Shown: positions 18,883 to 50,396, numbered from the stretch's first letter. The stretch: 64,000 nt of DNA from Bacteroidota bacterium (GCA_022561875.1 JADFQJ010000001.1:1-64000), one strand, 5' to 3'. Numbers and translations: made by a program. Notes: generated from the letters alone by a model not told the origin.

Positions 18883-18906
18883 TTATATTGGTTAAAAAGT
18901 GTACTT

Positions 18907-20904: not shown

Positions 20905-20955
20905 ATCCTTTGATCTCTTCCTGTGTCCATATTTTCTTAAATTCCTGTTCGAAAA

Positions 20956-22749: not shown

Positions 22750-22961
22750 CAGGCATTTTTTATCTCTTTTTTTGTTTTTTTCTCAAATATCTCTCGCTTT
22801 ATTCTGTTTTTCCAATCAATTTCTTAATTTTGATATAATTGAATTACTTGAATTCTAACCGGATTCTTGCAATAGCTAAAAGTCATAACCAGATAGCTCA
22901 AGAATTTTTTATACGGAAGGTTTACGAAGGGATATTTTTAGTAAGGGTAATTATAAAAAAG

Positions 22962-22990
22962 AACATAGTTTTGCAAAGTAATTAAATAAT
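22962..22990 (+). repeat. Short copy of the AACATAGC repeat abutting a start codon
   Basis: AACATAGTTTTGCAAAGTAA and the following TTAAATAATG match the first 28 bp of the repeats at 15621 and 56396, and run into the ATG at 22989. The rest of the 239-bp gap before this gene shows nothing I can name. Confidence 0.55.
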
Positions 22991-24461: not shown

Positions 24462-24508
24462 TCATTAATCTATGAACTAATCAGGTTTGAACCTGCATTA
24501 TAAAGCAA

Positions 24509-24539
24509 TTTGTTAAACAATATATTTTGTCTATATTTA
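24509..24539 (+). promoter_or_regulatory. Bacteroidota-type promoter for the SPOR-like paralogue
   Basis: TTTG (24509-24512), a 19-bp spacer and TATATTTA (24532-24539, one mismatch to TAnnTTTG) lie 13 nt before ATG 24552. It overlaps the earlier in-frame ATG at 24510, arguing for the later start. Confidence 0.5.
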
Positions 24540-24551
24540 GATTATTCAGGT

Positions 24552-32089: not shown

Positions 32090-32854
32090 ATGAAAAGGTT
32101 TTTTCAGGTCATTATTGCTTTATCCCTCCTGTTTGGCTCATGTACAAGCCAAAAGCAATTATTATATCTCCAGGATTTAGATACCGGTACTAAAGACAAT
32201 ATTTTTTTCAAACAATCAATCAATTACAAAATACAAACCCAGGATATACTCTATATCAGGATATACAGCATGAATCCTAAGGCGAATGAAATATTTAATT
32301 TAACATCCGGAAGATATCAGCAAAATCTTTTCCAGAATGAAACCAGCCTGTTTATTAACGGGTATAGTGTAACCGATTCAGGTAATGTTGATTTACCCAT
32401 TATCGGAAAGGTAAATGTATTATACAAAACAGTAGAAGAAGCCAAATATGCAATTCAGTCACATGCAGATGAGATCCTTAATAATTCATCTGTTGTTGTA
32501 AAACTGATAAGCTTTAAGTTTTCGGTTCTCGGTGAGGTTCATGCGCCCGGGATGTACAGGAATTATAACAACCAGTTAACTGTTTTAGAAGCGATTGCCA
32601 TGGCAGGAGATATCACTGATTATGGCAACAGGAAAAAAATACTGATTATCAGGCCAATAAAATCAGGAACTGAGACCTTCAGGATAGATCTTACACGCAG
32701 TGAAGTTCTCTCCTCAGAAGGATTTTTCCTGCTTCCCAATGACATCGTTTACGTGGAACCTATCAGTACCAAAACCTTTAGGATCAATACCCCCACATTT
32801 TCTTTATTTCTCTCAACTGTAACCACTTCTTATATTGATTTTGAGTTTTATTAA
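32090..32854 (+). CDS. Wza-like polysaccharide export lipoprotein
   Basis: A 254-residue outer-membrane polysaccharide exporter. The signal peptide ends in a lipobox (LLFGSCTSQ, lipid-modified C18). The Poly_export domain (about 45-140) contains YKIQTQDILYIRIYS and GNVDLPIIGKV; one SLBB-like repeat follows (FSVLGEVHAPGMYRNYNNQL). It is shorter than E. coli Wza, as usual for Bacteroidota. It is 11 bp upstream of the BY-kinase gene, and together they make the export machine for a capsule or exopolysaccharide. The ATG directly abuts a copy of the gene-start-associated repeat. Confidence 0.9.
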   Translation: MKRFFQVIIALSLLFGSCTSQKQLLYLQDLDTGTKDNIFFKQSINYKIQTQDILYIRIYSMNPKANEIFNLTSGRYQQNLFQNETSLFINGYSVTDSGNVDLPIIGKVNVLYKTVEEAKYAIQSHADEILNNSSVVVKLISFKFSVLGEVHAPGMYRNYNNQLTVLEAIAMAGDITDYGNRKKILIIRPIKSGTETFRIDLTRSEVLSSEGFFLLPNDIVYVEPISTKTFRINTPTFSLFLSTVTTSYIDFEFY

Positions 32855-32865
32855 ATAAGCATAGA

Positions 32866-35307
32866 ATGGAATACGGCGCCGATCATATTTACCAGGAAGA
32901 AAATATTGATATTAAGAAATTTCTTTTCAGGATGCTTTCCAACTGGTATTGGTTTGCACTATCTCTATTCCTGACCATTACAAGCGCTTATCTGATAAAC
33001 AGGTATTCTGAACCGGTATATAGTGTTAATTCTACAGTTATTGTCCGGGATTATGAAAAAGGGAGTGGACTCATAGGTGCTGAGCAAATGATCGAGAGTC
33101 TTGATATGTTCAGCAGCCGCAAGAATATTCAGAATGAAATTGGTGTTCTGAAATCATATTCCCTCGCACAAAAAGTTATGAAAGAACTGGATAATTTCAA
33201 GATAACCTATGTGAATGTTGGACGCAGGGGAATTGCAGAATCCAAACTTTACACCCAGTCGCCGATAATTGTAAAACCCGATACATCAGCCACCCAACGA
33301 TACGGATACCCTGTTTACATAAACATCATTTCAGATACCGAATATGAGCTGAAGATTGATGAAGAATTCAATATTAAAAAACGAATGAAATTCGGCGAAC
33401 CCTTTATCAACGAAAATTTTAACTTCATCATAGAGTTAAGGGATAAAAAGAATTTTTTCGTTGAAAACCTGTCATCCGGAAAATACTATTTCATAATCAA
33501 TAGTCTGAATTCACTAACCAACAGGTATAGAAGCAAACTTGGTGTAGGAGTGACTGATAAAGAAAGTTCAATATTGACACTTTCTACCCAGGGATATGTT
33601 GCCCAGCAGGAAGTCGACTATCTAAATAAACTCATGGAGGTATTTATCGGATCTGATTTGGAGGAAAAAAATCTGACAGCTGTTAATACCATTAAATTTA
33701 TTGACGATCTGTTGATGGAAGTTACCGATTCGCTTGCATCGGCTGAATCCAATTTAATGCAATTCAGGCAATCCCATAAGATCCTTGATATTAGCAGAGA
33801 AGGGTCTGCGATTTTTGAACAGCTTGAATCATTTCAACAGGAAAAAACCCGGCTTAACCTCAAGATTAAGTACTATAATTATCTTCGTGATTATGTAGAA
33901 AGTAAGTCGGATTTCAAAGATATCATAGCCCCTTCAGTTATCGGTATAAACGACCCTGTATTGATGTCACTTCTAACACAATTATCCGACCTCTATTCTG
34001 AGAAAACAGAACTGCTTTTTACTGCGAAAGAAAATAACCCGTTAATAGATGTCACGATCCGGAAATTAACAAGTACCAGAAAAGGACTTCTGGAAAATTT
34101 AGGAAACCTGATCCATTCCACTGATATCGCGATGGCTGATGTAGACGAAAGAATAAGTAAAGTCGATATTGAGATAAGGAAATTACCTGCTACTGAGAGA
34201 AAACTCATTGGGATAGAACGGAAATTTAATCTGAATAATGATATTTATACCTATCTGCTGGAGAAAAGGGCAGAAGCGGGAATTGCACAGGCATCGAATA
34301 TTCCTAATAACAAGATACTCGATATAGCCCGCGTTGATAATGCCACAAAAGTCTCTCCCAAGAATTCAATGAACTATATGATCGCATTGGTTATTGGATT
34401 AGCAATTCCTCTGGTTATCATCCTGCTTTTCGATTACTTCAATAACAAGATTATTGACAAGTCTGATATTGAAAACAATACCAATGTTACTATTCTAGGG
34501 ACTATCGGGCATAATTACGGTGAATCTGACCTCCCGGTACTTCAAAATCCAAAGTCATCAATAGCTGAATCATTCAGATCAATCCGAACCAGTATCCAGT
34601 ACCTGTTACCCGAAAAAGAGAGGAATATAATTTCAATTTCATCAGCCATAATCAGTGAAGGAAAAACCTTTGTAGCCGCAAACCTTTCTATCATTATTGC
34701 AATGTCCGGCAAAAAAACCCTGCTCGTGGGATTAGATATGAGAAAACCGAAAATACATAAAGACTTTAATGTAAATAACGATGTGGGCTTGAGCACATAC
34801 CTGATCAGTGAAACAAGTTATAAAGACATTATCCGGTCAACCGATATTGAAAACCTTTACATTGCAACCTCCGGACCCATACCTCCCAACCCTGCGGAAC
34901 TTATCGAAAAGGCATCAATGAAAGAATTCTTTGATAAGGTGAAAAAAGAATTTGATTATGTGATACTGGATACTCCGCCTGTTGCAATTGTTACCGATGC
35001 TATATTGTTAACACAGTATACCGATACTAATATTTTTGTCGTCCGTCAGAAATATTCCTCCAAAAATGTTATTCAATACATCGATGAATTATATAATAAA
35101 AAGAATATTAAGAACCTAAGTCTCCTGGTTAATGATGTTAAGATCCCCAGCTACTATGGATACGGGTACGGTTATTATTTTGGTTACGATTATGGTTATA
35201 GCTACGGGTATGGCTATGGACAAGGATATTACGGTGACGAAGATGAAACACCAAAAAACATATCTGCAAAGATCAGGAGAGTTCTGTTCGGGAAAAGATC
35301 AGGGTGA
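32866..35307 (+). CDS. Wzc-like polysaccharide co-polymerase with BY-kinase domain and Gly-Tyr tail
   Basis: An 813-residue inner-membrane protein. TM1 about 31-47; a Wzz-type periplasmic region with long helices; TM2 about 500-520; a cytoplasmic bacterial tyrosine kinase with Walker A (SEGKTFVAANL, near residue 596), Walker A' (LLVGLDMRKPKIH) and Walker B (VILDTPPVAIVTDA, near 700). The C-terminal autophosphorylation cluster is extreme: about 14 tyrosines within 35 residues, mostly in GY repeats (about 760-797), then acidic residues. It controls chain length and export with the Wza-like partner. No flippase, polymerase, phosphatase or glycosyltransferase genes follow, so the glycan genes must be elsewhere. 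Confidence 0.92.
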   Translation: MEYGADHIYQEENIDIKKFLFRMLSNWYWFALSLFLTITSAYLINRYSEPVYSVNSTVIVRDYEKGSGLIGAEQMIESLDMFSSRKNIQNEIGVLKSYSLAQKVMKELDNFKITYVNVGRRGIAESKLYTQSPIIVKPDTSATQRYGYPVYINIISDTEYELKIDEEFNIKKRMKFGEPFINENFNFIIELRDKKNFFVENLSSGKYYFIINSLNSLTNRYRSKLGVGVTDKESSILTLSTQGYVAQQEVDYLNKLMEVFIGSDLEEKNLTAVNTIKFIDDLLMEVTDSLASAESNLMQFRQSHKILDISREGSAIFEQLESFQQEKTRLNLKIKYYNYLRDYVESKSDFKDIIAPSVIGINDPVLMSLLTQLSDLYSEKTELLFTAKENNPLIDVTIRKLTSTRKGLLENLGNLIHSTDIAMADVDERISKVDIEIRKLPATERKLIGIERKFNLNNDIYTYLLEKRAEAGIAQASNIPNNKILDIARVDNATKVSPKNSMNYMIALVIGLAIPLVIILLFDYFNNKIIDKSDIENNTNVTILGTIGHNYGESDLPVLQNPKSSIAESFRSIRTSIQYLLPEKERNIISISSAIISEGKTFVAANLSIIIAMSGKKTLLVGLDMRKPKIHKDFNVNNDVGLSTYLISETSYKDIIRSTDIENLYIATSGPIPPNPAELIEKASMKEFFDKVKKEFDYVILDTPPVAIVTDAILLTQYTDTNIFVVRQKYSSKNVIQYIDELYNKKNIKNLSLLVNDVKIPSYYGYGYGYYFGYDYGYSYGYGYGQGYYGDEDETPKNISAKIRRVLFGKRSG

Positions 35308-37189: not shown

Positions 37190-37357
37190 CTAACCAAACG
37201 GCTTATCGTCATCAAACGGTGAATCGAAAGAATCACCACTTCCCTTTTTACCACCACGGGGATCAGGGTTAGGAGGGGTGGTAGTCATCATGAAAAGTGA
37301 GATCGAATTATCCAGATCGATCTTTTTTATTTCAGGCTTTTTGTAAATCTTCTTCAT
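37190..37357 (-). CDS. Candidate modified-peptide (RiPP) precursor, 55 aa
   Basis: A 55-residue ORF read from ATG 37357 (an upstream in-frame ATG at 37372 adds five residues). The N-terminal half looks like a leader: MKKIYKKPEIKKIDLDNSIS, with a Y-x-x-P-x-I-x-x-I motif like the one bound by B1/PqqD-type recognition domains in lasso-peptide leaders. The C-terminal half is low in hydrophobics and rich in P, G, D, S (TTTPPNPDPRGGKKG, then SFDSPFDDDKPFG), with an SPF/KPFG ending. It follows five co-directional genes that include a PqqD-like protein, kinase, peptidase and exporter, and has its own consensus promoter. The peptide's function and modification are unknown; similar small Bacteroidota ORFs are usually left as hypothetical. 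Confidence 0.7.
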   Translation of the reverse strand: MKKIYKKPEIKKIDLDNSISLFMMTTTPPNPDPRGGKKGSGDSFDSPFDDDKPFG

Positions 37358-37385
37358 GTTGTAAAAGAGCATACTTTATCACTTT

Positions 37386-37416
37386 CAAAATTACAATAAT
37401 TTATAAATATACCAAA
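37386..37416 (-). promoter_or_regulatory. Consensus Bacteroidota promoter for the candidate precursor gene
   Basis: On the minus strand TTTG (37416-37413), exactly 19 bp, then TAATTTTG (37393-37386): a full match to the TTTG/TAnnTTTG consensus, 28 nt before ATG 37357. It gives the peptide gene its own transcript, separate from the biosynthetic genes. Confidence 0.7.
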
Positions 37417-37521
37417 CTTCATTCTCAACTTTAGTGTTATACGTTATAGTAAGGGTATGACTAAAAAGGCGGGTAATTGGTTGCATTGAGATATAACTTT
37501 CCCGGTTAATTAGAGTTATCC

Positions 37522-38697
37522 TTAATTTAGTATTAAGTAAACAAGCTTGCCGAAGCGGTGCGGGTAATACAATAAAGCCCTTAACTTACTGTGTGTATTG
37601 TACCTCTTCTTCATAAAGCGCAGGGTGGGAAAAAGATCGCCTGTAATAAAAATTATCTTACGGTGAAACCCGGTTATCTGCTTTATTGTTTGCCGGTAAT
37701 TTTCTGCCCGGTTATACAGAACCGGATGTCCCTCCGGCTGTGCAAGAAAAGTCCTGAATAAATGAGAGGTATTATCCGGAGTCTTTTCATTAATAAGTAT
37801 CTCCATTGCCGGAGGAATATAAATTCCCCAGTATTGCTTCAAAAGAAAAAGTTTAGCGGATAAAATTTTTTCAAGTCCGGCTGCTTCTGCCTCATTAAAC
37901 AGCGCCGTATCAAGAAGCTCCCCTCCATATTTATCAACCATACAAAAAAGGTCGGTATACAAACGTAATTGCGATTCACCGTTATTCTCATGTTTGTCGA
38001 GATGGTTTACAAGGTAAAGAAAAAACTCACGCACCGGCGGGATAAGCACACTGCTTTTGTTGAATGTTGTTTCAGTACTGTTGGTGAGCATTCTTTCTGT
38101 AAGCAAGTGGTCTGCTCCGGAAAAAAGTTTATGGTGTATCTCAACAGAAATACCTCCTTTGATCAACTCCGGCAGATGCTTGCCATAGTATGGCAGTATA
38201 AGATTATAGAGTGGTGATTTAAGCGGGATTGACTGAAAACCGTTTTTTAATAATATCCTTCTTGCTTCCATGCATTGTTTATGTGGCACAAGAATATCAA
38301 TATCGTTCATCTGCCTTAACCCCATATTGCCGTAAACGGACAGCTCAAGAGCCATTCCTTTAAGCAATACCGATTTTATTTTTTCCTGTTTAAAAAGCTC
38401 TAATACCTGTTCAATATTTTTAAAAAGAAATGTGTTACGCCCGAGACTTTTCATCCTGCTGTTTGCAAGGTGTGCCATTTTATCTTCAGGCAACAGGTCA
38501 CCGGCGCCTGTCTCCTTCAGGTTATGGTATGTTAATGCTACAATGCCGTGTTTGTTAGCCAGATATGCAAACTTGTCAATATCTGTTATCTTCTTCGCGA
38601 GTGTACGGATATTTTTCTTCTGCTTTTCGCTGAAGGAGAGACGGCAGAGAGATATCAGCAATTGCTCTTCAGGTGATATATCGATATGAAGGCTCAT
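37522..38697 (-). CDS. Nucleotidyltransferase-family protein (NTP_transf_5)
   Basis: A 391-residue protein of the NTP_transf_5 (PF14907-like) family. The Pol-beta-type active site is in the first half: LLKGMALELS (K113-G114) and MNDIDILVP with D132 and D134 as metal ligands. The rest is helical and poorly conserved. Members of this family occur beside HprK-like kinases in lasso-peptide and related clusters, where they are thought to modify the peptide or a phospho-product; that role here is inference. Its start overlaps the end of the ABC transporter gene by 4 bp, so it is translationally coupled to the operon. The precursor gene lies 164 bp downstream. Confidence 0.85.
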   Translation of the reverse strand: MSLHIDISPEEQLLISLCRLSFSEKQKKNIRTLAKKITDIDKFAYLANKHGIVALTYHNLKETGAGDLLPEDKMAHLANSRMKSLGRNTFLFKNIEQVLELFKQEKIKSVLLKGMALELSVYGNMGLRQMNDIDILVPHKQCMEARRILLKNGFQSIPLKSPLYNLILPYYGKHLPELIKGGISVEIHHKLFSGADHLLTERMLTNSTETTFNKSSVLIPPVREFFLYLVNHLDKHENNGESQLRLYTDLFCMVDKYGGELLDTALFNEAEAAGLEKILSAKLFLLKQYWGIYIPPAMEILINEKTPDNTSHLFRTFLAQPEGHPVLYNRAENYRQTIKQITGFHRKIIFITGDLFPTLRFMKKRYNTHSKLRALLYYPHRFGKLVYLILN

Positions 38698-40496
38698 AAC
38701 TTGTATCCGCTGCTTTGCATTGTGTACATCTCACTGTAAATACCACCGGTTTTCATCAGCTCATCATGCGTACCTTCCTCAGTTATCATTCCTTTATCGA
38801 GTACCAGTATCCTGTCGGCCAGACTGACATTTGAGAAACGGTGACTGATAAGTATTGAAGTCCTGTTGCGGGTTATTTCTTTGAACCTGCTGAACAGTTC
38901 ATATTCTGTTGCAGCATCGAGGGCGCTTGTCGGTTCGTCGAGTATCAGTACAGGAGCATCCCTGTAGAGGGCACGTGCCATTGCTATCTTCTGCCATTCG
39001 CCCCAGCTAAGTTCACGACTGTCATCAAAAAGTCTGCCGATTACCGTATCATATCCTTTGGGCAGTGCCTCTATCAGTTCGTCTATACCTGTTTGTGATG
39101 CCGACGTTTTTATTCTTTCCTTATTTTGAGGGGTGAAAATATCCCCCATCCTGATATTATCGCCTGCACTGAGGTTATACAGCATGAAATCCTGAAAGAT
39201 AACCGAGAACAGTCTGCGGTAAGAAGCAGGGTCCATGTGTCTGATATCCTTACCATCAAGAGTTATCTTTCCTTCAGCCGGATCGTACAATCTGCATAGC
39301 AGTCTTACCAGTGTGCTTTTACCTGCACCGTTGGCTCCTACCAGCGCTATCGTTTCGCCCTTCCGTATCTCAAGATTAAGGTTTTTGAGTAGCGGTTCAC
39401 CGGCACCCGGATATGAAAAGGAGAGGTTGTTGACATTGATACTCCTGTTGAAGCTACCCGGTTCAATAAAAGGAGGTACAGCAACGATCTGTTCTTTAAG
39501 ATTGAGGAACTCAAAGGTATCGCCAATGAAAAGATTATCTTCATATAAACCTGCCAGCGATGAGAAGACATCTTTAATATAGACCATACCCTGCCTGAAA
39601 GCAACGAGGTACATTGCCATATCGCCTACCGATATTTGTGAGCTGACAGTTTTTTCGGCGATATACCACAGTGCTAATAAGAATGCTGAAGCCTTAAAAA
39701 TACCGGTAATAAGCTCAATGAATGTTCTCTTGCGTATAATATCTATCTCTTCCTCTTTCAGCTTTTTGAAGTTCTTATTAAAAAGATCCTTGAAATAATT
39801 TCCCAGTCCGAACAGGCGTAACTCTCTCGATGGCCTGTCGCCTGTCAGCAGCCATTTGAAGTATGCTGTTTTTCTTGCGGCTGGTGTTTGTTCGCGCTTG
39901 AAGTTATACAGTACTCCGGCATAATGCAGGCGGAGCCATATTCCAGGTATGTTAGCTGCAAGAAGGATTATTACAATTACCCAGTGCAGATAAAAAAGGA
40001 GTCCTGCCATCAGTAAAAGTGATAACAGTCCCCTGGCAATAGAGATTAGGTTGTTAACGATAGTGTTGGGTCTGTATGGTGCTTCGCGTGCCGCTCGAGC
40101 CAGCGAGTCGTAATATTCAGGATTTTCGAAATGCTGAAGATCGAGCTTTATTGATTTGGAATGAAGCAGGTTATGCATGTGCGCCTCAAGGTGGTAGGAT
40201 TGTTTGTTACGCACCAGGTTGCCCAGACTCGTTGCCGCCTCATCAAAGAATATTATTATTACAATAGCAAGGATATACCATATTACCAGGTTAAAATTCG
40301 TATCCCCTACCTGTCCGGTTGCCCCGGTTATACCGTCAACAAGCTGCTTGATGAGATATACCAGCACCAGAGGGAAGATACTTCGCAAGACAGAGATGAA
40401 GATGTTTGCTGTAGCCCAGCCGGGAGCACTTTCCCAGACGAGGTTGATTGCTTTCCGGAAGAATGATTTCTTAATACTATAGAATAGGTTACTCAC
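38694..40496 (-). CDS. ABC exporter (fused TMD-NBD)
   Basis: A 600-residue half-transporter with about six membrane helices (residues 15-320) and a C-terminal ATPase. Walker A is GANGAGKSTLVRLL (near 385), Walker B is VLILDEPTSALD (near 515), and the H-loop is ILISHRFS (near 548). The signature reads LSWGEWQ (near 495) in place of LSGGQ; the W codon TGG is clear in the sequence. There is no N-terminal C39 peptidase domain, so leader removal must be done by another protein, most simply the S26 peptidase encoded just upstream. Position and family suggest export of the mature peptide. Neighbours on both sides are spaced or overlapped by under 20 bp. Confidence 0.9.
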   Translation of the reverse strand: MSNLFYSIKKSFFRKAINLVWESAPGWATANIFISVLRSIFPLVLVYLIKQLVDGITGATGQVGDTNFNLVIWYILAIVIIIFFDEAATSLGNLVRNKQSYHLEAHMHNLLHSKSIKLDLQHFENPEYYDSLARAAREAPYRPNTIVNNLISIARGLLSLLLMAGLLFYLHWVIVIILLAANIPGIWLRLHYAGVLYNFKREQTPAARKTAYFKWLLTGDRPSRELRLFGLGNYFKDLFNKNFKKLKEEEIDIIRKRTFIELITGIFKASAFLLALWYIAEKTVSSQISVGDMAMYLVAFRQGMVYIKDVFSSLAGLYEDNLFIGDTFEFLNLKEQIVAVPPFIEPGSFNRSINVNNLSFSYPGAGEPLLKNLNLEIRKGETIALVGANGAGKSTLVRLLCRLYDPAEGKITLDGKDIRHMDPASYRRLFSVIFQDFMLYNLSAGDNIRMGDIFTPQNKERIKTSASQTGIDELIEALPKGYDTVIGRLFDDSRELSWGEWQKIAMARALYRDAPVLILDEPTSALDAATEYELFSRFKEITRNRTSILISHRFSNVSLADRILVLDKGMITEEGTHDELMKTGGIYSEMYTMQSSGYKL

Positions 40497-40515
40497 AAAT
40501 GTAAAAGTATAAATT

Positions 40516-40974
40516 TCACAAATTAAAACGAATTATGCGAATGAGTTTGTCAAACATATGGATTGATTTGATCATGAGGCGGTTACGACGGTAATGTATT
40601 TTATTGCTGTGTGGTTTGATTTTACCTCGTTTTGTTTCAATGGCAGTGACCACACCGGATATTTTATCTGCTGTAACTGGTTTATCTTCATTCACACTAC
40701 TGTCGCCTCGCGTGATAAAGAAAATTTTTTTTTCATGATACCGGATATCTGTCAGCCTGTGTAATACAAAACCGGAATCTCTCCTGAAAACTATTATATC
40801 ACCCGGAATGAGGTTTGACTGATTATTGACAGGAGCGATAATAACAATGTCACCGGGACGTATTGCAGGGAACATACTGTAACCACCCGCTTTGATACGC
40901 AACGATTTACCCTCTGAAAGAAGACTGATACTTACCTCTTTTAAGAAAGAATGATCTGACTTGTTATTTTTCAT
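40516..40974 (-). CDS. S26-family peptidase (Sec11/SipW-like Ser-His type)
   Basis: A 152-residue protein with the type I signal peptidase core. GYSMFPAIRPGDIV holds the nucleophile S33; the second motif is FVLHRLTDI, with H72 where bacterial leader peptidase would have Lys, so it belongs to the Ser/His branch (Sec11, SipW). An Asp-containing TRGDSSVNEDKP block (D91/D97) completes the site. It lacks a clear N-terminal membrane anchor, unusual for a signal peptidase; the C-terminus is basic. Given the exporter without protease domain, it may cleave the leader of the candidate peptide. Its start overlaps the kinase gene by 11 bp. Confidence 0.82.
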   Translation of the reverse strand: MKNNKSDHSFLKEVSISLLSEGKSLRIKAGGYSMFPAIRPGDIVIIAPVNNQSNLIPGDIIVFRRDSGFVLHRLTDIRYHEKKIFFITRGDSSVNEDKPVTADKISGVVTAIETKRGKIKPHSNKIHYRRNRLMIKSIHMFDKLIRIIRFNL

Positions 40975-41854
40975 TTTTCAGGATATATGATATTACACTC
41001 TTATCCGGTCTGAAGAAGAGGCGGCGGACATCTGTTTCAGATGTTAGTTTAACAAGCGCTGCAGTCAGCGATTCAATTATTGAAGGGTCCCAAAGATGCT
41101 GAATACAGTTAGCCATAAGCAGTGAAAGAGCTTCACTGTTTCCTGTCGGGACGATAGTGTTTACAGTGCCATGATCGATGAGAAAGATCTTGTCAACAGG
41201 CGCTGACCGCGGTGTTTCATTATTGTATACAGGTGTGTTATACATAACAAAACGATTGTTTATATTTCTGATAATAAGTCTGTCGTCGTGTATCACCCTG
41301 GCGCCTGCCTCATTCCACAACCGTGCAATAGTAGTTTTGCCTTTCCCCGAGACACCGGCAAAAAGGTATCCCCTGTTGTTTATGTTGACTCCTGAACCAT
41401 GAATAAAAATATCACCCGACCTGACAGTGAGATAATAAAGCAGCAGACCGTCAAGAGGATACTCCAGCGGATCTCTTTTTTTTTCCACACCACTGATATA
41501 AAGGTCCCACACATCTGCCCCGGTATTTATTCGCATACAGGCTTTCCTGTTTTTTTTCCCCAACGGCAGGATAGTTTCAATTAATATATCGTCATTGTTT
41601 TTATAAACAGTCCAGAACTCATCATTAATTTTTATCTTTATATTATCAGTCTCTTTAATATACGGGGCATGAAACACCCTTACGGCTTTTTTTTCAGGTG
41701 TGAGTATACCTGAATGTACACGGATTGTAATATCAACATTCCTGTTGTCTGAAAAAAAGTTGTTATATCGTTTTGTAGTGAAAAGCTCTGTTTCAGGTTC
41801 GGCAGATACAAACCGGGTAATATAATCTGCAATATTCAGGCTAAAGCTTCTCAT
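40964..41854 (-). CDS. HprK-like serine kinase
   Basis: A 296-residue protein. The N-terminal 140 residues are a beta-rich domain; the C-terminal half matches the HPr kinase/phosphatase fold: DIFIHGSGV (H152), a P-loop GVSGKGKTT at residues 167-175, and VIHDDRLII with D190/D191 as the metal and catalytic acids. There is no HprK-type N-terminal domain and no PTS gene nearby, so it is not the classical carbon-catabolite kinase. Kinases of this kind in lasso clusters (the paeninodin type) phosphorylate a Ser of the precursor; the candidate precursor here has Ser residues near its C-terminus. Overlaps the PqqD-like gene by 4 bp. Confidence 0.82.
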   Translation of the reverse strand: MRSFSLNIADYITRFVSAEPETELFTTKRYNNFFSDNRNVDITIRVHSGILTPEKKAVRVFHAPYIKETDNIKIKINDEFWTVYKNNDDILIETILPLGKKNRKACMRINTGADVWDLYISGVEKKRDPLEYPLDGLLLYYLTVRSGDIFIHGSGVNINNRGYLFAGVSGKGKTTIARLWNEAGARVIHDDRLIIRNINNRFVMYNTPVYNNETPRSAPVDKIFLIDHGTVNTIVPTGNSEALSLLMANCIQHLWDPSIIESLTAALVKLTSETDVRRLFFRPDKSVISYILKNEK

Positions 41855-42138
41855 CCATTGATAATAAGGAATTGTTTCATCTCACTGATAAAGGAGAGAA
41901 GATCACTCTTTGCTGTTTCAGCGTCTACTTCAAACTCACTCTGCATACAACGGATTATGCTTGCAAGGTCTGATTTACCATCCAGTCTTTCCCATATAAA
42001 CGCACCTGTTTCGTTCAGTGTATAGACACTATCCATGTCTGCTATGTTATTACTGACAGGCACCAGGACATATTCATCCCCTGTTTTTCTCGGAACAATA
42101 TCCGGAGACGGTATAACAACAGAGTTAAGATCAATCAT
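41851..42138 (-). CDS. PqqD-like RiPP recognition element protein
   Basis: A 95-residue stand-alone PqqD-family protein: a beta-hairpin N-terminus (DEYVLVPVSNNIADMDSVYT), then the family hallmark LNETGAFIWERLDGKSDLAS and a three-helix end (YF-type residues replaced by F and M). PqqD-like domains bind the leaders of ribosomal peptides and pass them to modifying enzymes. It is the first gene of the operon, behind a TACCTTTG -7 element. Some PqqD-fold proteins work in exopolysaccharide or exosortase gene sets, so a peptide role is inferred from the neighbours. Confidence 0.87.
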   Translation of the reverse strand: MIDLNSVVIPSPDIVPRKTGDEYVLVPVSNNIADMDSVYTLNETGAFIWERLDGKSDLASIIRCMQSEFEVDAETAKSDLLSFISEMKQFLIING

Positions 42139-42536: not shown

Positions 42537-42544
42537 TATCTTTG
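42537..42544 (+). promoter_or_regulatory. Possible -7 promoter element (TATCTTTG) for the NqrM-like gene
   Basis: TATCTTTG matches TAnnTTTG, 25 nt before ATG 42569. No clear -33 element was seen. Confidence 0.4.
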
Positions 42545-42568
42545 CTGCATCCAAAAGAGGTATTAATA

Positions 42569-42784
42569 ATGTTTATTAAGTTGTTTTTAATAACAGGTGT
42601 AATTATAGGGATCTCATTTCTTGCTCTGGGATTTTCCATTTTCATTAAAAAAGACGGTAAATTTCCATCTTATGAGATCGGAAAAAACAAAGAGATGAGA
42701 AAACTTGGGATCACCTGTGCGAAACATGATGAACTTAAATGTCATCGTCAGCCCAGGAAGGGGAACCCTTGCGATTGCAGCTAA
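42569..42784 (+). CDS. Small Cys-rich single-pass membrane protein, possibly NqrM-like
   Basis: A 71-residue protein from ATG 42569 (the frame is open nine codons more, but MFIKLFLITGVIIGISFLAL is a natural membrane N-terminus). One membrane helix (2-22), then a short soluble tail with four cysteines: ITCAKHDELKCHRQ and a final NPCDCS. The topology and C-terminal cysteines recall NqrM (DUF539), which delivers iron to the NQR complex, and it sits head-on to the apbE-nqrF-A gene set. The sequence match to NqrM is loose, so the assignment rests on context. It converges on apbE with 8 bp between stops. Confidence 0.6.
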   Translation: MFIKLFLITGVIIGISFLALGFSIFIKKDGKFPSYEIGKNKEMRKLGITCAKHDELKCHRQPRKGNPCDCS

Positions 42785-42792
42785 CCGTTTAG

Positions 42793-43842
42793 TTATTCCT
42801 GCACATCAACAATTATTTTCCCGAAACCATCAGTAAATTCAGTGCAGAAGTCACTATTTTCATCTGAATAAATGAAGTATGCTTCAATCCCGTCAAGCTT
42901 ATTGACAAGCCTTACTGACTTTTCCAATCCCATTATCATAAATGCCGTAGCAAATGCATCTGCCGTCATACAATCAGGGGCTGTAACAGTTACACTTAAA
43001 AGGTTATGCCTGACAGGGTAACCGGTTTTCGGATCGATTGAATGAGAATATTTCACTCCGTTTTCCTCGAAAAATTTCCTGTAGTTCCCTGAGGTAGCCA
43101 TGGAATTATCTTCAAGAGCGAGGATCACCTGGAGATCCTGACCGGGAATATAGTTATTATCATAAGGCTTATCCACCCCAACTTTCCAGGTAGTTCCCTT
43201 CTTTTTCCTACCGGCGGCCCTGATCTCTCCACCGATTTCTACAAGGTAGTTTTTAATCCCTTTACTACCTAGAAAACCGGCAATTATATCAACCGAATAT
43301 CCCTGGGCAATAGCATTGACATCTAATTTTACTCCGGGTTTACTTTTTATCACCATGTCTTTTTCTATTCGCACGTTATCCATACCTACAAATTGGATAA
43401 GGCTGTCTATCAAAGCGCTATCAATCTGCTCACGGAGTTCCGGACCAAACCCCCAGGCATTAACAAGCGGTCCGACAGTAATATCAAAAGCCCCGTCACT
43501 TAATTCATTAACTTCTTTAGCTTTATAAAATACTATCCTGAACAGGCTATCCACCTTTACATCCTTCTCATTATTATTTATGCGGGATATCACTGACCCG
43601 GGAAGATATATCGAAAGCGACCGGTCAAATTCCATCAGCAGAGAATCAATTTCTTCCTGGTAATCATGTAATTTGGGATTTAAGAAATACCCTGGTGAGT
43701 ACGGCTGTTTGTAAACAATATGATAGGTTGTACCCTGTGTAAATCCATCCAGGATCAGTATCTCATTTTTCTTATAATTCACATATGACAGCAGAACCAG
43801 TATCAGAAAGGCAATGACAATGTATATAGTTCTCTTGTTCAA
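42793..43842 (-). CDS. apbE: FAD:protein FMN transferase
   Basis: A 349-residue flavin transferase that attaches FMN through a phosphoester to Thr residues of NqrB and NqrC. One N-terminal membrane anchor (about 6-22, no lipobox), then the ApbE domain: DGAFDITVGPLVNAWGFG, VKLDVNAIAQGYSVD, EIGGEIRAAG, a SGNYRKFFEENGVKYSHSID segment and MTADAFATAFMIMG with the Mg-binding Asp. All blocks are intact. It lies downstream of nqrF, on the same strand, which fits its role in maturing the complex. Confidence 0.95.
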   Translation of the reverse strand: MNKRTIYIVIAFLILVLLSYVNYKKNEILILDGFTQGTTYHIVYKQPYSPGYFLNPKLHDYQEEIDSLLMEFDRSLSIYLPGSVISRINNNEKDVKVDSLFRIVFYKAKEVNELSDGAFDITVGPLVNAWGFGPELREQIDSALIDSLIQFVGMDNVRIEKDMVIKSKPGVKLDVNAIAQGYSVDIIAGFLGSKGIKNYLVEIGGEIRAAGRKKKGTTWKVGVDKPYDNNYIPGQDLQVILALEDNSMATSGNYRKFFEENGVKYSHSIDPKTGYPVRHNLLSVTVTAPDCMTADAFATAFMIMGLEKSVRLVNKLDGIEAYFIYSDENSDFCTEFTDGFGKIIVDVQE

Positions 43843-43957
43843 AGTTCAAAGTAGTTACTGGTTACTGGGTGCTGGGTGCTGGCATGTATCTTCTTTTAAG
43901 CATAATAACCACTCACCACTCATTTCTCACTTCTCACCGCTCTTTTCCCCTTTTTTC

Positions 43958-45214
43958 CTATTCTCCGAAATCGTCAAAGGCGATCATCTCATCAGGCACA
44001 CCCAAATCGTACAACAATTTCTGAACAGCGTCATTCATTAAAGGCGGACCGCAGAAATAATATTCTATTTCCTCAGGTTCTTCGTGTTTGCTCAGGTAAT
44101 TATCATACAGAACCTGGTGAATAAAACCCGTAAGCCCATCCCATTTATCTTCTTTCAGCGGTTCGGAAAGAGCAATATAAAACTTGAAATTGGGAAAACT
44201 CTTTTCCAATTCGCGAAAGTGCTCCTCATAAAATATTTCATTTTTTGATCTGGCACCGTACCAATAGGTTACTTTCCTTTTTGTCTTAAGAGTGCTAAAC
44301 AGGTGCAACAGGTGAGAGCGAAGCGGGGCCATTCCTGCACCACCGCCAATATATACCATTTCCTTGTCAGTATCCTTTATAAAAAAATCACCATAAGGTC
44401 CTGAAATTGTAATTTTATCGCCGGGTTTCCGGGAAAATATATAGGATGAACAGATTCCCGGGTTTACTTTCATAAATCTTCCCTTTGAGCGTTCCCATGG
44501 TGGAGTGGCAATACGGATATTCAGGATAATAATATTTCCTTCAGCCGGATAATTTCCCATTGAATAGGCTCTGTAGGTCTCTTCCGGGTTTTTCATTTTC
44601 AGATCCCACAATCCGAATTTGCCCCACTCATCACGGAATTCTTCTTCAACATAAATATCCTTTCTGAAATGCACGATAATTTCAGGAACATCAATCTGCA
44701 CATAACCACCCGACTGAAAATCGAGTGATTCACCTTCAGGTAATTTAACCACAAACTCTTTGATGAAAGTTGCAACGTTCTTATTTGAAACCACTTCACA
44801 TTCATATTTCTTAATATCCAGTACAGATTCAGGCACCTTGATCACCATATCCCCGCGAACTTTCACCTGACATCCCAGTCTCCAGTTATTTTGTTGTTCT
44901 TTACGCGTAAAAAAGCCTGTTTCAGTTGGCAGAATAGATCCGCCACCTTCAAGCACCTGGCATGTACACATTCCGCAGGTCCCCATCCCTCCACAAGCTG
45001 AGGGAAGGAAAATTTCATTGGCTGACAATGTTGCCAGTATTGTGGATCCGGGGGAGATATCCATTTCCCTGTCATTAATTTTGAGGTGCACTACGCCCTG
45101 TGGTGTTAGTTTCTTTCGTGCATAAAGCAAAATAAGTACAAGAAACAGGATCACAACCAGGAAAATAGCGATACTCACCAGGATAATTTCGAACTGTGAA
45201 AGTAGTAAGATCAT
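43958..45214 (-). CDS. nqrF: Na+-translocating NADH:quinone reductase subunit F
   Basis: A 418-residue NADH-oxidising subunit. TM helix about 8-28; a 2Fe-2S ferredoxin domain with CGGMGTCGMC and a fourth Cys in RLGCQVK; then an FAD-binding reductase domain (RAYSMGNYP, with the flavin RxYS motif) and an NAD-binding domain (MVYIGGGAGMAPLRSHLLHL, ending YYFCGPPLMNDAV). Electrons enter here from NADH. Length is normal. It is 233 bp after nqrE, a gap partly filled with short repeats. Confidence 0.97.
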   Translation of the reverse strand: MILLLSQFEIILVSIAIFLVVILFLVLILLYARKKLTPQGVVHLKINDREMDISPGSTILATLSANEIFLPSACGGMGTCGMCTCQVLEGGGSILPTETGFFTRKEQQNNWRLGCQVKVRGDMVIKVPESVLDIKKYECEVVSNKNVATFIKEFVVKLPEGESLDFQSGGYVQIDVPEIIVHFRKDIYVEEEFRDEWGKFGLWDLKMKNPEETYRAYSMGNYPAEGNIIILNIRIATPPWERSKGRFMKVNPGICSSYIFSRKPGDKITISGPYGDFFIKDTDKEMVYIGGGAGMAPLRSHLLHLFSTLKTKRKVTYWYGARSKNEIFYEEHFRELEKSFPNFKFYIALSEPLKEDKWDGLTGFIHQVLYDNYLSKHEEPEEIEYYFCGPPLMNDAVQKLLYDLGVPDEMIAFDDFGE

Positions 45215-45257
45215 TTCGTCTGTATAATATTTAACGTTTGTTTATAAACTCTTTTTT

Positions 45258-45447
45258 ATGCTAAATCTGTATCTGGTTACTGGTTACTGGTCACTGGTAA
45301 CTGGAACCTTTAAATCTAAAACTCGTCAGCCGAATTCAATTCGGCTCTACTTCGCCTCTTCTCATCTTCTCCTTTTCACCTCTTCTCTTTGCTCTTCCTT
45401 ACTCACCTACTCACCTTACTCAACCACTCAACTCCTCTTCTTTGAAC
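45258..45447. repeat. Repeat mosaic between nqrE and nqrF
   Basis: Plus strand: TGGTTACTGGTTACTGGTCA (45262-45300), a GCCGAATTCAATTCGGC palindrome (45329-45345), then CTTACTCACCTACTCACCTT (45404-45440), the complement of the TTGAGTAG unit. No gene is supported. Confidence 0.55.
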
Positions 45448-46065
45448 TCATATCTTAATTCCCATAAAACTCATAAAGGCTATACCCATCAGACCGGCAA
45501 TAATAAATGTTATCCCCAGTCCGCGTAGCGGGGCCGGAACATTTGAATATCTGATTTTCTCACGGATGGCTGCAATGCCAACAATAGCAAGTAACCAGCC
45601 AACACCTGACCCAAGACCGAAAATTGTGGCTTCACCAATATTCTGATATTCGCGTTCCACCATAAATAACGATCCGCCTAAAATGGCACAGTTTACAGCA
45701 ATCAGCGGAAGAAAAATACCAAGGGATGTATACAATACCGGTATAAACTTTTCAATTACCATCTCAACCAGTTGTACCATTGATGCAATAACAGCGATAA
45801 ACATGATAAAAGTAAGGAAGCTGAGGTCGACATTGGCAAAATCTTCGCTGATCCAGATAAGCGCTCCTTTCTTAAGAAGATAGTTTTCAATCAGATAATC
45901 AACCGGTACGGTTATTACTAATACAAATATTACCGCTATTCCAAGGCCAACAGATGTTTTAACAGTTTTTGAAACTGCCAGGTAAGAACACATGCCCAGG
46001 AAATAGGCAAAAATCATGTTATCGATAAAGATCGACTTAACAAAGATATTCAGTAAGTCTTCCAT
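45448..46065 (-). CDS. nqrE: Na+-translocating NADH:quinone reductase subunit E
   Basis: A 205-residue inner-membrane subunit with six helices, paired with NqrD around the intramembrane iron centre. Conserved parts: [20 protein letters not shown], with the iron-ligand Cys, [20 protein letters not shown] with the second Cys, and [20 protein letters not shown]. Length is normal. Confidence 0.96.
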
Positions 46066-46150
46066 AAGTAAATTATTAATCTCTATTTATTATTTATTTG
46101 GCGACTACTCACCTCTATTATTTCTTCAACATTTTATATTCTTCAAAAGT

Positions 46151-46220
46151 GTTACGAGTTTCGGGCTTGCCACGTTTACCCCATGAAATTCTTTTTATTT
46201 CATCGGGGTGAAATGCGACG
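46151..46220 (+). repeat. 70-bp REP-like repeat with hairpin, copy 1
   Basis: Starts GTTACGAGTTTCGGGCTTGC and ends GGGGTGAAATGCGACG. It matches 62069-62138 at 69 of 70 positions. The second half folds as a hairpin: CCCCATGAAAT pairs with ATTTCATCGGGG with one bulged base. It lies in the nqrD-nqrE gap. A partial version (GTTACGGGTTTCGGGCTTGC) is at 7976. Confidence 0.8.
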
Positions 46221-46316
46221 TAGGAGCATATTTCACTGTGGTTACGAGTTACGAGTTCACCTTTTGTCTTCAAACCTTAAACTCTTCACTCTTCCTTACT
46301 CACCCACTCAACTTAC

Positions 46317-46964
46317 TCAACTTTCTTCAATAAGCTCTTTAGTCCTGCTTCTTTGTACCCAGATAATGACACCAATAATTATAAGCGCCATGGGGGGTAA
46401 AATCATCAAGCCATTGTTTTCATATCCAATATTATAGACACCCAATTTCTCAAGTATCGGGTATCCCCATATCTCTCCCGATCCGAGCAATTCACGTAAT
46501 AAACCTACTATAACAAGTATCAATCCATAGCCGGCCGAATTACCGATACCATCCAGGAAAGCAGGCCAGGGTCTGTTGCCCATGGCAAATGCTTCAAGAC
46601 GGCCCATAATTATACAGTTGGTAATGATCAGTCCGACAAACACTGAAAGTTGCTTGCTCACATCGTATGCGAAAGCTTTCAGAACCTGGTCAACCAGAAT
46701 TACCATTGTCGCAATTACTGTGAGCTGCACAATGATCCTGATCCTCGGTGGTATCATTTTTCTAAGCGCTGAGATCACCACATTGGATACTGCTAATACA
46801 ACCACAACCGATATGGCCATAACCACTGAAGGTTCGAGCTTTACTGTAATAGCCAGTGCGGAACATACTCCAAGTACCTGAACAGTAATTGGATTGTCTA
46901 TGTTCAAAGGATTAGTAAGCAGCTTCATGTTCTTCGAAGAAAATAATGGTTCTCTGTCGTTCAT
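46317..46964 (-). CDS. nqrD: Na+-translocating NADH:quinone reductase subunit D
   Basis: A 215-residue six-helix inner-membrane subunit homologous to NqrE. Conserved parts: NPITVQVLGVCSALAITVKL and VGLIITNCIIMGRLEAFAM, each with one iron-ligand Cys, and DGIGNSAGYGLILVIVGLLR. The start overlaps the nqrC stop by 4 bp, so the two are translationally coupled. Confidence 0.96.
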   Translation of the reverse strand: MNDREPLFSSKNMKLLTNPLNIDNPITVQVLGVCSALAITVKLEPSVVMAISVVVVLAVSNVVISALRKMIPPRIRIIVQLTVIATMVILVDQVLKAFAYDVSKQLSVFVGLIITNCIIMGRLEAFAMGNRPWPAFLDGIGNSAGYGLILVIVGLLRELLGSGEIWGYPILEKLGVYNIGYENNGLMILPPMALIIIGVIIWVQRSRTKELIEES

Positions 46965-47674
46965 TTGATATTATTCATTTGGTTTTTAAAATAAGTTTGA
47001 TAACTGCTAAGGCAGTCATACAGCATTTTTTCAAGGCCATCGCTTGTAAGTGTACCACCAGAAATGGCATCAACTTCATTTAAGCTTTCCGGATCGGCCC
47101 CACCCTTTACAAGGTCAATAGATATAAATTCCAGGTTTTTATTAAATATTTTCTTGTCGGCAAATTGTGCACCGAACCAATCGGTATTGATCTCGGCTCC
47201 CAGTCCCGGTGTTTCACTATCATGGTTAAAATTTGTTCCGTAAATAGTGATAAAGTCATCATTTAATGCCACAAATCCATAAATAGGCCCCCAAAGGCCT
47301 TTGCCTTGAACAGCCACAATATATTTTTTTTTGCCATCTTCAAGAGAACTGATAAATACCGGAAGGGATCTCTGCTCCAGGGATTTCCTCATTTGCGATA
47401 CCATTTCAATCTTAAAAGCATCAACGCCCTTTTGCTCTTTGCCAACAGTATTAATAACAAAACTACCTGTAATATATTTTTCGTACAGTTCTTCCGCATC
47501 TTTGGCACTGCTTTTAATTCTTATCGAAGAAAGGATATTCCTTTTTTTCTGTATCTCAATATTCTTTTCCTGTAATGGCTGAAGCACCATTGCTGCCGTA
47601 CTAAGTAAAGCTGCAACAACAACAACCATTATTGTTGAGAAAACAAAAATGTAGGTATTGCTAAAACTTTTCAT
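46961..47674 (-). CDS. nqrC: Na+-translocating NADH:quinone reductase subunit C
   Basis: A 237-residue subunit with one N-terminal membrane helix (about 8-30) and a periplasmic FMN_bind domain. The flavinylation site is visible in DAISGGTLTSDGLEK, with T208 as the probable FMN-linked residue; the usual motif is SG(A/G)TxxS. GLWGPIYGFVALN and ETPGLGAEI are other conserved pieces. apbE at 42793 would load the FMN. Confidence 0.95.
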   Translation of the reverse strand: MKSFSNTYIFVFSTIMVVVVAALLSTAAMVLQPLQEKNIEIQKKRNILSSIRIKSSAKDAEELYEKYITGSFVINTVGKEQKGVDAFKIEMVSQMRKSLEQRSLPVFISSLEDGKKKYIVAVQGKGLWGPIYGFVALNDDFITIYGTNFNHDSETPGLGAEINTDWFGAQFADKKIFNKNLEFISIDLVKGGADPESLNEVDAISGGTLTSDGLEKMLYDCLSSYQTYFKNQMNNIK

Positions 47675-47823
47675 CTGTTTACATTTAGTATTTTAAGTAT
47701 CATGTATCTTACGTTGTTTATCGTATGAGGTTAATCTTAATATTTTTAGTCTTGATCCATAAGTAACTATTCAGTGCTAAAAATGTTACTGGTTACGAGT
47801 TCACGCCTCTTCGCTCTTTGCTC

Positions 47824-48978
47824 TTAGCTCTTAATTCTTTTCACCCTTTTCTTAATATTAGCTTCAATCACGTAATGATCTATTAACGGAGCAAATACAT
47901 TCATTAACAATATGGCAAGCATCACACCTTCAGGATAAGCAGGATTAATAACACGGATCAGAATAGCAAGAAATCCTGTCAGAAATCCATAGATCCATTT
48001 ACCACGTTCGGTCTGTGCTGCAGTAACCGGATCGGTCGCCATAAACACTGCACCGAATGCAAAACCACCCATAATCAAATGATGCCAGGCAGAGATCTCC
48101 ATGTAAGGATTTACTGCAAAAGCATTGAAAAGCAATCCCATAACAAGCCCTCCTGCAATCATGGAAAACATTATCTTCCAGCTTCCCATACCGGTTGCAA
48201 CAAGTATTACTGCTCCAATCAGAATAGCAATTACCGATGTCTCGCCAATAGATCCGGGAATAGTTCCGAGAAACATTTCCCAGACAGAAGGGATCTTTTC
48301 AAACATACCGGCTGCTGCGTTTGCCAGAGGAGTGGCTCCTGAAAAACCATCTATCACACCCTGACCTTTTGTAAGCCCTTCGATCCATACAGTATCTCCC
48401 GACATCCAACTCGGGTATGCAAAGAAGAGAAACGCCCTGGCTGTGAGCGCCGGGTTCAGGATATTCATTCCGGTTCCGCCAAATACCTCCTTACCGATAA
48501 TAACAGCGAATGCCGTTGCCAGGGCAACCATCCATAAAGGAACATCAACAGGTATTATCAATGGTATTAAGATACCTGAAACAAGAAAACCCTCATTCAC
48601 TTCATGCCCCCTGATCTGGGCAACAGCAAATTCAATCCCCAGTCCAACAACATAGGAAACGACAATAATCGGAAAAACTTTCAGGAATCCGAAGACAAAA
48701 TTTTCCCATAAAGTAACCTCCAGACCGACAGATAAGTTATGCTGGTATCCTGTATTCCACATGCCAAAAAGAAGAGCCGGAACAGTCGCTGCAACAACAA
48801 CACTCATTGCCCTTTTCATATCAAGGGCATCACGAATATGAGCGCCTTTGGTTGTTACCTGGTTTGAAACAAAAAGAAACGATTCGAAAGCTTCGAAAGT
48901 GGAATGTAGCATTTCAAATTTTCCGCCTTTTGAAAAATGTGGTTTGATTTTATCAATAAATCTTCTAAATGACTTCAT
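47824..48978 (-). CDS. nqrB: Na+-translocating NADH:quinone reductase subunit B
   Basis: A 384-residue polytopic subunit that holds the Na+ path, riboflavin and a covalent FMN. The flavinylation motif is GFSGATPLANAAAG with T216 as the likely FMN site. GGTGMNILNPALTARAFLFF and the HHLIMGGFAFGAVFMATDPV segment, also conserved in RnfD, are present. Length is slightly under the Vibrio form. 149 bp separate it from nqrC. Confidence 0.96.
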   Translation of the reverse strand: MKSFRRFIDKIKPHFSKGGKFEMLHSTFEAFESFLFVSNQVTTKGAHIRDALDMKRAMSVVVAATVPALLFGMWNTGYQHNLSVGLEVTLWENFVFGFLKVFPIIVVSYVVGLGIEFAVAQIRGHEVNEGFLVSGILIPLIIPVDVPLWMVALATAFAVIIGKEVFGGTGMNILNPALTARAFLFFAYPSWMSGDTVWIEGLTKGQGVIDGFSGATPLANAAAGMFEKIPSVWEMFLGTIPGSIGETSVIAILIGAVILVATGMGSWKIMFSMIAGGLVMGLLFNAFAVNPYMEISAWHHLIMGGFAFGAVFMATDPVTAAQTERGKWIYGFLTGFLAILIRVINPAYPEGVMLAILLMNVFAPLIDHYVIEANIKKRVKRIKS

Positions 48979-49037
48979 TATATTTTGATTATCAACTTCC
49001 TGGTTTGGTTAATAGAGTAATCTATATAGAGTATTTC

Positions 49038-50396
49038 TTATCCAAGTTCCTTTTGCATCAGTTCAAACCCGCTTCTTAATATTGATTGAACTTCAGTTTT
49101 TGAAGTACAGACAAATTCGCATAAAGCAAAATCTTCTTCTGCCACCTCGTATATTCCAAGGTTTTCCATAAGATCAATATCCTCAACAAGAATGGCTTTA
49201 AGCAAATGTACCGGATAAATATCCATGGGCAATACCTTCTCATATTGTCCACTTAACACAAAAGCTCTTCTGCCACCCTGCAGATTTGTATGCAGTGTGA
49301 ATCCTTTGTTCAGAGTAAAAAATGAAAAGAATGTTCGTGAAGCACTGAATTTTTTCAAACCCGGCAGGGCCCAACCTAAAAACTCATAATGATCACCTTC
49401 GGGTATAACCGTTATCTGTGAATCGTAAAACCCAATGAATCCTTCTTTGCTTATTTTACTGCCTGTAAGCACATTCCCGCTTATATAACGGTTATTGCTA
49501 TCTGTTACGTTATCCTTAACCAACATTTTAACGGAAGCTCCGAGTTTAGTCCTGTAATACCTCGGGTTTATAACCTCTGAGCCTGCGAATGCCACTAACC
49601 TGGTTGGTTTAAAAACACCCTTCTCAAATAGTTTTCCGATCACAACCACATCCTGAGGATTGATGGTCCACACCACTTCTCCTTTTTTTACAGGATCAAT
49701 ATGATTTATTTGCACACCAACATTACCGGCAGGATGCAGACCCTTGAAATGATGAAGCTCTACACCTTCAGCCCTGGAAAAAATATCAGCTGTTGGGAAA
49801 ACAGCGTTTATGCCGATATGTATCTTTCCGGATGTTAATTGTGACAGGGCATCAATCCCGGTTTGAAATGCTTCCTCTTCGCCGTAGAGGATAAAATCCA
49901 GATCGGGCGCCAGTGGTGCTGAATCAAAACCTGAAATAAAAATGGCCCTGGGTTCTTCTTTATAATCAGCAATAATATGAAACGGCCGTTGCCTGATAAA
50001 AGGCCACACTCCGCTCTTCAGAAGATTATCAATAATTTCTTCCTTATTCATAGTTTTAGGATCACCTTTCAGGAAAGTAATGGCTTCATCTTTCTGGTCC
50101 GATTCGATCACAACTTCACTGATACTTCTTCTTTCACCACGATTCACAGCTACAACTTTTCCGCTTACAGGCGAGGTGAATAAAACAGCAGGTTGGTATT
50201 TATCGTAAAATAAAGGAGATCCGACCCTAACGTCAGATCCAACTTTCACGGATAATTTTGGTATTGGGAACAGACCTGGAAAATCTGGTGGTTTAACAGC
50301 ATAAAACTCTGACGGTTCAGCTTGAATGATAATTTTTTCAGCTTTTCCTTTAAGCTTAATATCCAGGCCCTTTTTAATTCTGATAACCTTGGGCAT
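49038..50396 (-). CDS. nqrA: Na+-translocating NADH:quinone reductase subunit A
   Basis: A 452-residue cytoplasmic subunit, first gene of the operon. The barrel-sandwich N-terminal domain begins VIRIKKGLDIKLKGKAE; later conserved parts are GLHPAGNVGVQINHIDPVKK, VAFAGSEVINPRYYRTKLGA and VLSGQYEKVLPMDIYP. NqrA contributes to quinone access. Length fits. A promoter lies directly upstream. Confidence 0.96.
   Translation of the reverse strand: MPKVIRIKKGLDIKLKGKAEKIIIQAEPSEFYAVKPPDFPGLFPIPKLSVKVGSDVRVGSPLFYDKYQPAVLFTSPVSGKVVAVNRGERRSISEVVIESDQKDEAITFLKGDPKTMNKEEIIDNLLKSGVWPFIRQRPFHIIADYKEEPRAIFISGFDSAPLAPDLDFILYGEEEAFQTGIDALSQLTSGKIHIGINAVFPTADIFSRAEGVELHHFKGLHPAGNVGVQINHIDPVKKGEVVWTINPQDVVVIGKLFEKGVFKPTRLVAFAGSEVINPRYYRTKLGASVKMLVKDNVTDSNNRYISGNVLTGSKISKEGFIGFYDSQITVIPEGDHYEFLGWALPGLKKFSASRTFFSFFTLNKGFTLHTNLQGGRRAFVLSGQYEKVLPMDIYPVHLLKAILVEDIDLMENLGIYEVAEEDFALCEFVCTSKTEVQSILRSGFELMQKELG

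Follow-up and report, generated by a model that had tools for sequence, protein, structure and literature searches.

Which product can be made by an operon that encodes the tailoring enzymes of a lasso-peptide cluster but no cyclase? This question is raised by a locus in 64,000 nucleotides of DNA from a Bacteroidota bacterium (GCA_022561875.1, JADFQJ010000001.1:1-64000; this whole stretch is referred to below as the window), in which an earlier note had described tightly coupled, co-directional genes for a PqqD-type protein, an HprK-like kinase, an S26 peptidase, an ATP-binding cassette (ABC) exporter and a nucleotidyltransferase of the NTP_transf_5 family, together with a 55-residue open reading frame (ORF) as candidate precursor. 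All six features are present, on the minus strand (Table 1). Neighboring genes overlap by 4 bp (PqqD/HprK), 11 bp (HprK/S26) and 4 bp (ABC/NTP_transf_5) or are separated by 19 bp (S26-ABC), and the peptide ORF starts 164 bp beyond NTP_transf_5. In our judgement, the operon quite probably makes a ribosomally synthesized and post-translationally modified peptide (RiPP) that is linear, phosphate-tailored and related, within Bacteroidota, to the linear polyphosphorylated peptides (LPPs) of Bacillota.

LPPs are known from the lpp cluster of Paenibacillus alginolyticus and were called restricted to Bacillota by their authors (Popov et al. 2026, PMC13381572). In their pathway, a RiPP recognition element (RRE) binds the YxxP motif of the leader, an HprK-like kinase attaches several phosphates to core residue Ser3, and a SipW-type peptidase (S29/H68/D93) removes the leader with the help of the RRE, handling unphosphorylated precursor poorly; the NTP transferase had no detectable effect (PMC13381572). 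The window operon and the lpp cluster have in common the genes A (precursor), B (RRE), K (HprK), S (SipW-type peptidase), D (MsbA-like exporter) and N (NTP transferase), the absence of a cyclase from the cluster (for the window, from the operon and 14 scanned flanking proteins), and a YxxPx[V/I] leader; the feature that marks membership, YxxPx[V/L/I], reads Y5xxP8xI10 in the window peptide. The peptidase Ser/His/Asp, the Tyr-pocket residues of the RRE and the polysaccharide-locus context are likewise common to LPP and the Bacteroidota system.

At the level of single residues, the triad S33/H72/D97 of the S26 protein has, on sequence comparison, a spacing identical to that of S29/H68/D93 in LppS. 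The protein matches Peptidase_S24 (5.6e-6) and TIGR02228, the archaeal-type signal peptidase I (1.9e-16, 60.3 bits against a cut-off of 51.85), and a search for a hydrophobic segment found none, which points to an enzyme without membrane anchor. The closest Protein Data Bank (PDB) matches of the PqqD protein are the lasso B1 protein 9x90, TfuB1 (6jx3) and LppB (9x8z); its N42, D79 and F83 align with N33, D70 and F74 of LppB (PDB chain numbering as derived from the alignment), which hold the leader Tyr/Pro (PMC13381572). In the kinase, H152, the Walker A motif GxSGxGKxT and D190 D191 are invariant in 14 homologues, and a profile search of the PDB matched HPr kinase 1jb1 (0.0014). K113 G114, R128 and D132xD134 of the NTP_transf_5 protein are invariant across eight homologues, while the exporter matches ABC_tran at 1.6e-33 and has MsbA as its best NCBIfam match, below the cut-off.

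The peptides themselves differ from those of Bacillota. Among 50 distinct related peptides, which were collected by a profile search that favours conserved motifs, all 50 carry [YF]xxPx14[ML]x[ST], whereas the LPP spacing Px9Fx[T/A] occurs in just one; the Bacteroidota leader is longer, with five residues more between the Pro and the cleavage motif (Px14Mx[ST]). The extended LPP consensus YxxPxVLxHQxIxFETxxS is not found, the HQ..FET..S part and the conserved Ser+3 being missing. Conversely, a C-terminal xPF motif in most peptides, frequent location of the peptide gene in trans, pairing with proteins of the type IX secretion system (T9SS) and kinase-peptidase fusions are seen in the Bacteroidota system and not in LPP. 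Because gene content, leader motif and key residues agree but the extended consensus and Ser+3 are missing, the system appears to be a divergent LPP-like variant rather than a plain member. The earlier idea of a peptide class without a backbone cyclase thus fits, but the class had already been described, in another phylum; besides PMC13381572, no description of it was found in the open-access literature. An operon for this predicted pathway has been widely retained across many families of Bacteroidota, outside the Bacillota in which it was first described.

The 55-residue ORF is a real gene. The peptide is 88-94% identical among congeners, with pN/pS of 0.14-0.58 in every pairwise comparison, indicating purifying selection, and this conservation excludes a chance ORF. 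The element TTTG-N19/20-TAnnTTTG, which we take to be a Bacteroidota-type promoter, lies about 60 nt before the start codon in five of the six congeners and arises in 0.2% of shuffles; because of this conserved element, the peptide gene probably has its own promoter besides its place behind the operon. Searches of Pfam and NCBIfam with 31 diverse peptides gave no convincing match to a known small-protein family. The consensus within the family is YxKPEIxRIxLDNSISLVMMTxxPPNPPPRGG...DSPFxSPFGDKPFG. Several remote peptides (L080, L082, L085, L086, L087, L090) have no ATG start, and several of these share an upstream in-frame stretch like LHLKTI..K.

What would be done to this peptide can be proposed from the LPP pathway, and we infer by that analogy that the same steps occur here, including the cleavage site, the modified residue and export. 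The PqqD protein would bind the leader via Y5xxP8 and present it; the HprK-like kinase would phosphorylate a hydroxyl residue of the core; the NTP_transf_5 enzyme would probably add a further group to the phosphate, most likely a sugar; the soluble Ser-His-Asp peptidase would cut after the invariant Ser/Thr 25; and the ABC protein would export the 30-residue core. No ring would be formed and the product would be linear. The earlier expectation of a phosphorylated peptide, cleaved by the S26 enzyme and exported without backbone cyclization, gains support by analogy from the same gene set, the kinase and peptidase steps having been shown in Paenibacillus (PMC13381572). Nucleotidylation, which had also been suggested, is doubtful, since the one described nucleotidyltransferase of such kind, that of pseudomycoidin, adds hexose to the phosphate (review PMC8498205); by analogy, the enzyme here may do the same.

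M23 and [ST]25 can be read, from the alignment of motifs, as counterparts of F-3 and T-1 of LPP, which would place cleavage after residue 25. Since Ser and Thr replace each other freely at residue 25, this position is more plausibly the -1 site of a signal peptidase than the acceptor of a kinase whose LPP counterpart does not accept Thr (PMC13381572). If cleavage does follow residue 25, the known acceptor Ser is absent from most peptides, and the target residue of the kinase would there differ from Ser3 of LPP.

Homologues were followed through the family, the order and the phylum, in genomes that are mostly drafts. Across the order, wider profiles found peptides in 31 of 344 genomes, with one to five in each, and the usual gene order is PqqD - peptide - HprK - S26 (- ABC - NTP). 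At L154, L156, L160, L161, L171, L172, L173, L175 and L185, the peptide gene is flanked by PqqD and HprK, with S26 and often ABC next in line; L162 and L190 show it in the same position with S26 not in view, and further peptides of the order are solitary. The PqqD-peptide-HprK arrangement appears to be ancestral, the peptide having presumably moved away in the window's family. With the kinase counted as present at E below 1e-35, 24 of the 344 genomes have both kinase and peptide, 4 the kinase only, 7 the peptide only and 309 neither (odds ratio 265, Fisher p 9e-27, a significance inflated by the kinship of the genomes, although some 15 families are involved). Conserved co-occurrence of peptide and kinase, which the earlier note had named as the check to be made, is thus observed. 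At L177, L183 and L189, no other modifying enzymes were recognized beside the PqqD-peptide pairs, whose neighbors look unrelated by eye. A search of 396 genomes sampled across the phylum gave only weak matches outside the order, in two genomes of one genus.

Within the window's family, the kinase is present in 73 of 117 genomes. Of the 40 loci read, nearly all keep the order PqqD-HprK-S26, mostly with ABC and NTP next, and in other genera the operon adjoins RNase R and IspG. At six loci (L059, L069-L073), HprK and S26 form one reading frame; such fusions fit the system because LppS reportedly cuts unphosphorylated precursor poorly. A scan of genome contigs returned congeners only, and a first search for a YxxP ORF beside the operons of other genera found none. 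A profile of the window peptide then detected the peptide at other places in the genome, bringing the total to 41 of 114 family genomes, with E-values outside the genus down to 1e-21. A peptide that is always beside the operon is therefore ruled out, since in other genera only the profile search revealed the remote copies. The short ORF, whose constant presence the earlier note had wished to see checked, lies between PqqD and HprK in many families; in the window's own family, it is usually remote, and it was not found in 22 operon-bearing genomes. Peptides and their enzymes can thus be encoded far apart, and mining that relies on gene clusters misses such systems. Two further observations concern these family operons: at L068 (10615-14041, G048), genes for a DNA methylase and a TdeIII-type restriction enzyme split the operon between HprK and S26, and a conserved protein of about 69 aa (M.KFQKETLK.RLLKLA.LKSTGAP.ELALRFEISERSVKR), in appearance a helix-turn-helix regulator, follows many operons downstream of NTP/ABC (e.g., L053, L056, L058, L061).

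The places where the remote peptides lie offer a hint at their role. Of the 20 remote family loci, 18 have the peptide directly behind a same-strand protein with a T9SS sorting domain, at a gap of 27-269 bp; the remaining two comprise one with an intervening small ORF and one that starts at a contig end. The partner proteins are about 900-1400 residues long where complete. Taking as upstream neighbor that of the peptide, or of PqqD where PqqD precedes the peptide, 46 of 56 match the type A sorting domain TIGR04183, and only one of 57 lies on the opposite strand. The bodies of these neighbors vary, with Ig-like repeats, a beta-helix or a neuraminidase-associated domain. Sorting domains number 20-55 per family genome, the richest genomes having no fewer than 150, and we estimate that even in the latter they account for at most about 9% of genes. 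Synteny makes many family loci non-independent; loci from the order as a whole show more diversity. The partner is present in 10 of 10 peptide-bearing family genomes tested, whereas, of the 22 operon-bearing genomes without peptide, four have a partner truncated where a contig ends, the others showing no convincing orthologue; peptide and partner thus appear to be lost together. In the window's genus, no orthologue of the partner protein was found, and the peptide is kept at the operon's end, 2-5 kb from wza/wzc (32090-35307). Genes for Wza, Wzc, NusG-like, sugar-transferase and, by eye, Wzi-like proteins are common around the remote peptides, and some of these regions carry a second NTP_transf_5 or the ABC gene. 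At L111-L113, L116 and L117, the peptide is closely followed by very large open frames (2100-2750 aa) on the other strand; one of them reads as SprB-like repeats but also overlaps the ABC/NTP matches and could in part be a mirror frame.

The location of peptide genes immediately downstream of genes for large type IX-secreted proteins is a new feature and gives a first testable hint at what the peptides do: the presence of such protein genes upstream of most relatives' peptides suggests a role at the cell surface. Tentatively, one may picture a two-partner surface system, in which each tailored peptide would be made for the one type IX-secreted protein encoded upstream, which it would join, anchor or mature (as it might the polysaccharide around that protein) outside the cell, one central operon serving several scattered pairs; we regard this as possible though on balance unlikely. 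As pairs are gained and lost jointly, the purpose of the peptides becomes testable via surface proteins and matrix.

Several other explanations have to be weighed. One is a lasso peptide with the genes for its B2 protease and cyclase at other sites of the genome. A discrete RRE and a YxxP leader are common to lasso peptides, LPP and this operon, the PqqD protein has its closest PDB matches among lasso B1 proteins, and a kinase and NTP transferase are known in paeninodin-like lasso clusters (PMC8498205); indeed, paeninodin-like lasso peptides and pseudomycoidin share the discrete RRE, HprK-like kinase, nucleotidyltransferase and ABC exporter with the operon. They need, however, a B2 protease and a macrolactam cyclase. 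The B2 family (PF13471) has no match in the bacterium's own 98%-complete genome and is absent from eight of nine other genomes with the system, a signal-peptidase-type enzyme occupies the place of B2, and a first residue and an acidic acceptor suited to a macrolactam are not consistently present in the cores after residue 25. No radical SAM, YcaO, LanM or asparagine-synthetase family member was found among the operon proteins and 14 scanned flanking proteins, these families not having been scanned for genome-wide, and the earlier statement that B2, the lasso cyclase and such enzymes are missing was borne out within these limits. The paeninodin-like kinase targets a C-terminal Ser, which is not conserved here. 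Because B2 is missing, the operon is not a lasso system; a lasso peptide with a cyclase acting in trans is rejected on the same ground, and this explanation, already largely refuted, is very improbable.

The linear-peptide reading also has to be set against two explanations that assign the enzymes a different task. The operon may regulate exopolysaccharide (EPS) or surface-protein production inside the cell, the phosphorylated peptide being a small phospho-switch that is not secreted; the capsule/EPS setting of the remote peptides, with Wza, Wzc, NusG-like and sugar-transferase genes, and the conserved housekeeping site of the relatives' operon by RNase R and IspG would suit this. That the kinase shares its operon with a leader peptidase and an MsbA-like exporter suits a secreted product better, however, and the operon has no DNA-binding or receiver protein, so we consider a switch improbable: of the earlier exopolysaccharide alternative, the context stands, and regulation itself is not favoured. 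The HprK-related A/B proteins (TIGR04352, TIGR04355), which presumably occur with PqqD-like proteins in exosortase/EPS settings, are HprK-like as is the kinase here, but its scores (14 vs 200 and 34.9 vs 200) are far below the cut-offs. The enzymes may, alternatively, have another main substrate, with the peptide as one client among several or a recent addition. The wider spread of the operon than of the peptide in the family (73/117 vs 41/114 genomes) and 17-18 genomes with neither peptide nor partner speak for this; the position of the peptide between PqqD and HprK across the order and the strong co-occurrence speak against it, and divergent peptides may have been missed, which leaves it rather unlikely. 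Some findings do weigh against a linear, LPP-like product. The kinase has only a sub-threshold Pfam match (Hpr_kinase_C, 1.4e-4), with weak domain-level E-values; if the cut is after residue 25, Ser stands at core +3 in just 3 of 50 peptides and is missing altogether from 5 of 50 cores. About half of the family operons are without a recognisable peptide, the 22 genomes noted above among the signs that the enzymes may have other substrates, and seven order genomes have a peptide without detected kinase.

Table 1. Features of the locus and its polysaccharide-related context in the window
Feature	Position	Strand	Evidence
PqqD-type discrete RRE (LppB/B1-like), 95 aa	41851..42138	-	Pfam PqqD 6.6e-19
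HprK-like peptide kinase (LppK-like), 296 aa	40964..41854	-	Hpr_kinase_C, sub-threshold; conserved residues
SipW/archaeal-type S26 peptidase without membrane anchor (LppS-like), 152 aa	40516..40974	-	TIGR02228
MsbA-like ABC exporter (LppD-like), 600 aa	38694..40496	-	ABC_tran + ABC_membrane
NTP_transf_5 enzyme (LppN-like), 391 aa	37522..38697	-	PF14907 1.7e-47
Putative Bacteroidota-type promoter TTTG-N19-TAATTTTG	37386..37416	-	59 nt before peptide start
Precursor peptide gene, 55 aa (MKKIYKKPEIKKIDLDNSISLFMMT / TTPPNPDPRGGKKGSGDSFDSPFDDDKPFG, predicted leader end after T25)	37190..37357	-	Conservation, motif
Wza-like polysaccharide export protein (context)	32090..32854	+	Poly_export, SLBB
Wzc-like chain-length/tyrosine-kinase protein (context)	32866..35307	+	Wzz, GNVR, AAA_31

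An Rfam search of the region gave no match. Upstream of PqqD, the window holds an ApbE gene and a Na+-NQR/Rnf-type operon (42542-50396); a small cysteine-containing ORF there (42542-42784, plus strand) looks NqrM-like by eye and has no Pfam match. Farther away, a run of five large plus-strand genes (15916-26480), alike in their starts, appears to encode TPR/OmpA-type (PorE-like) envelope proteins.

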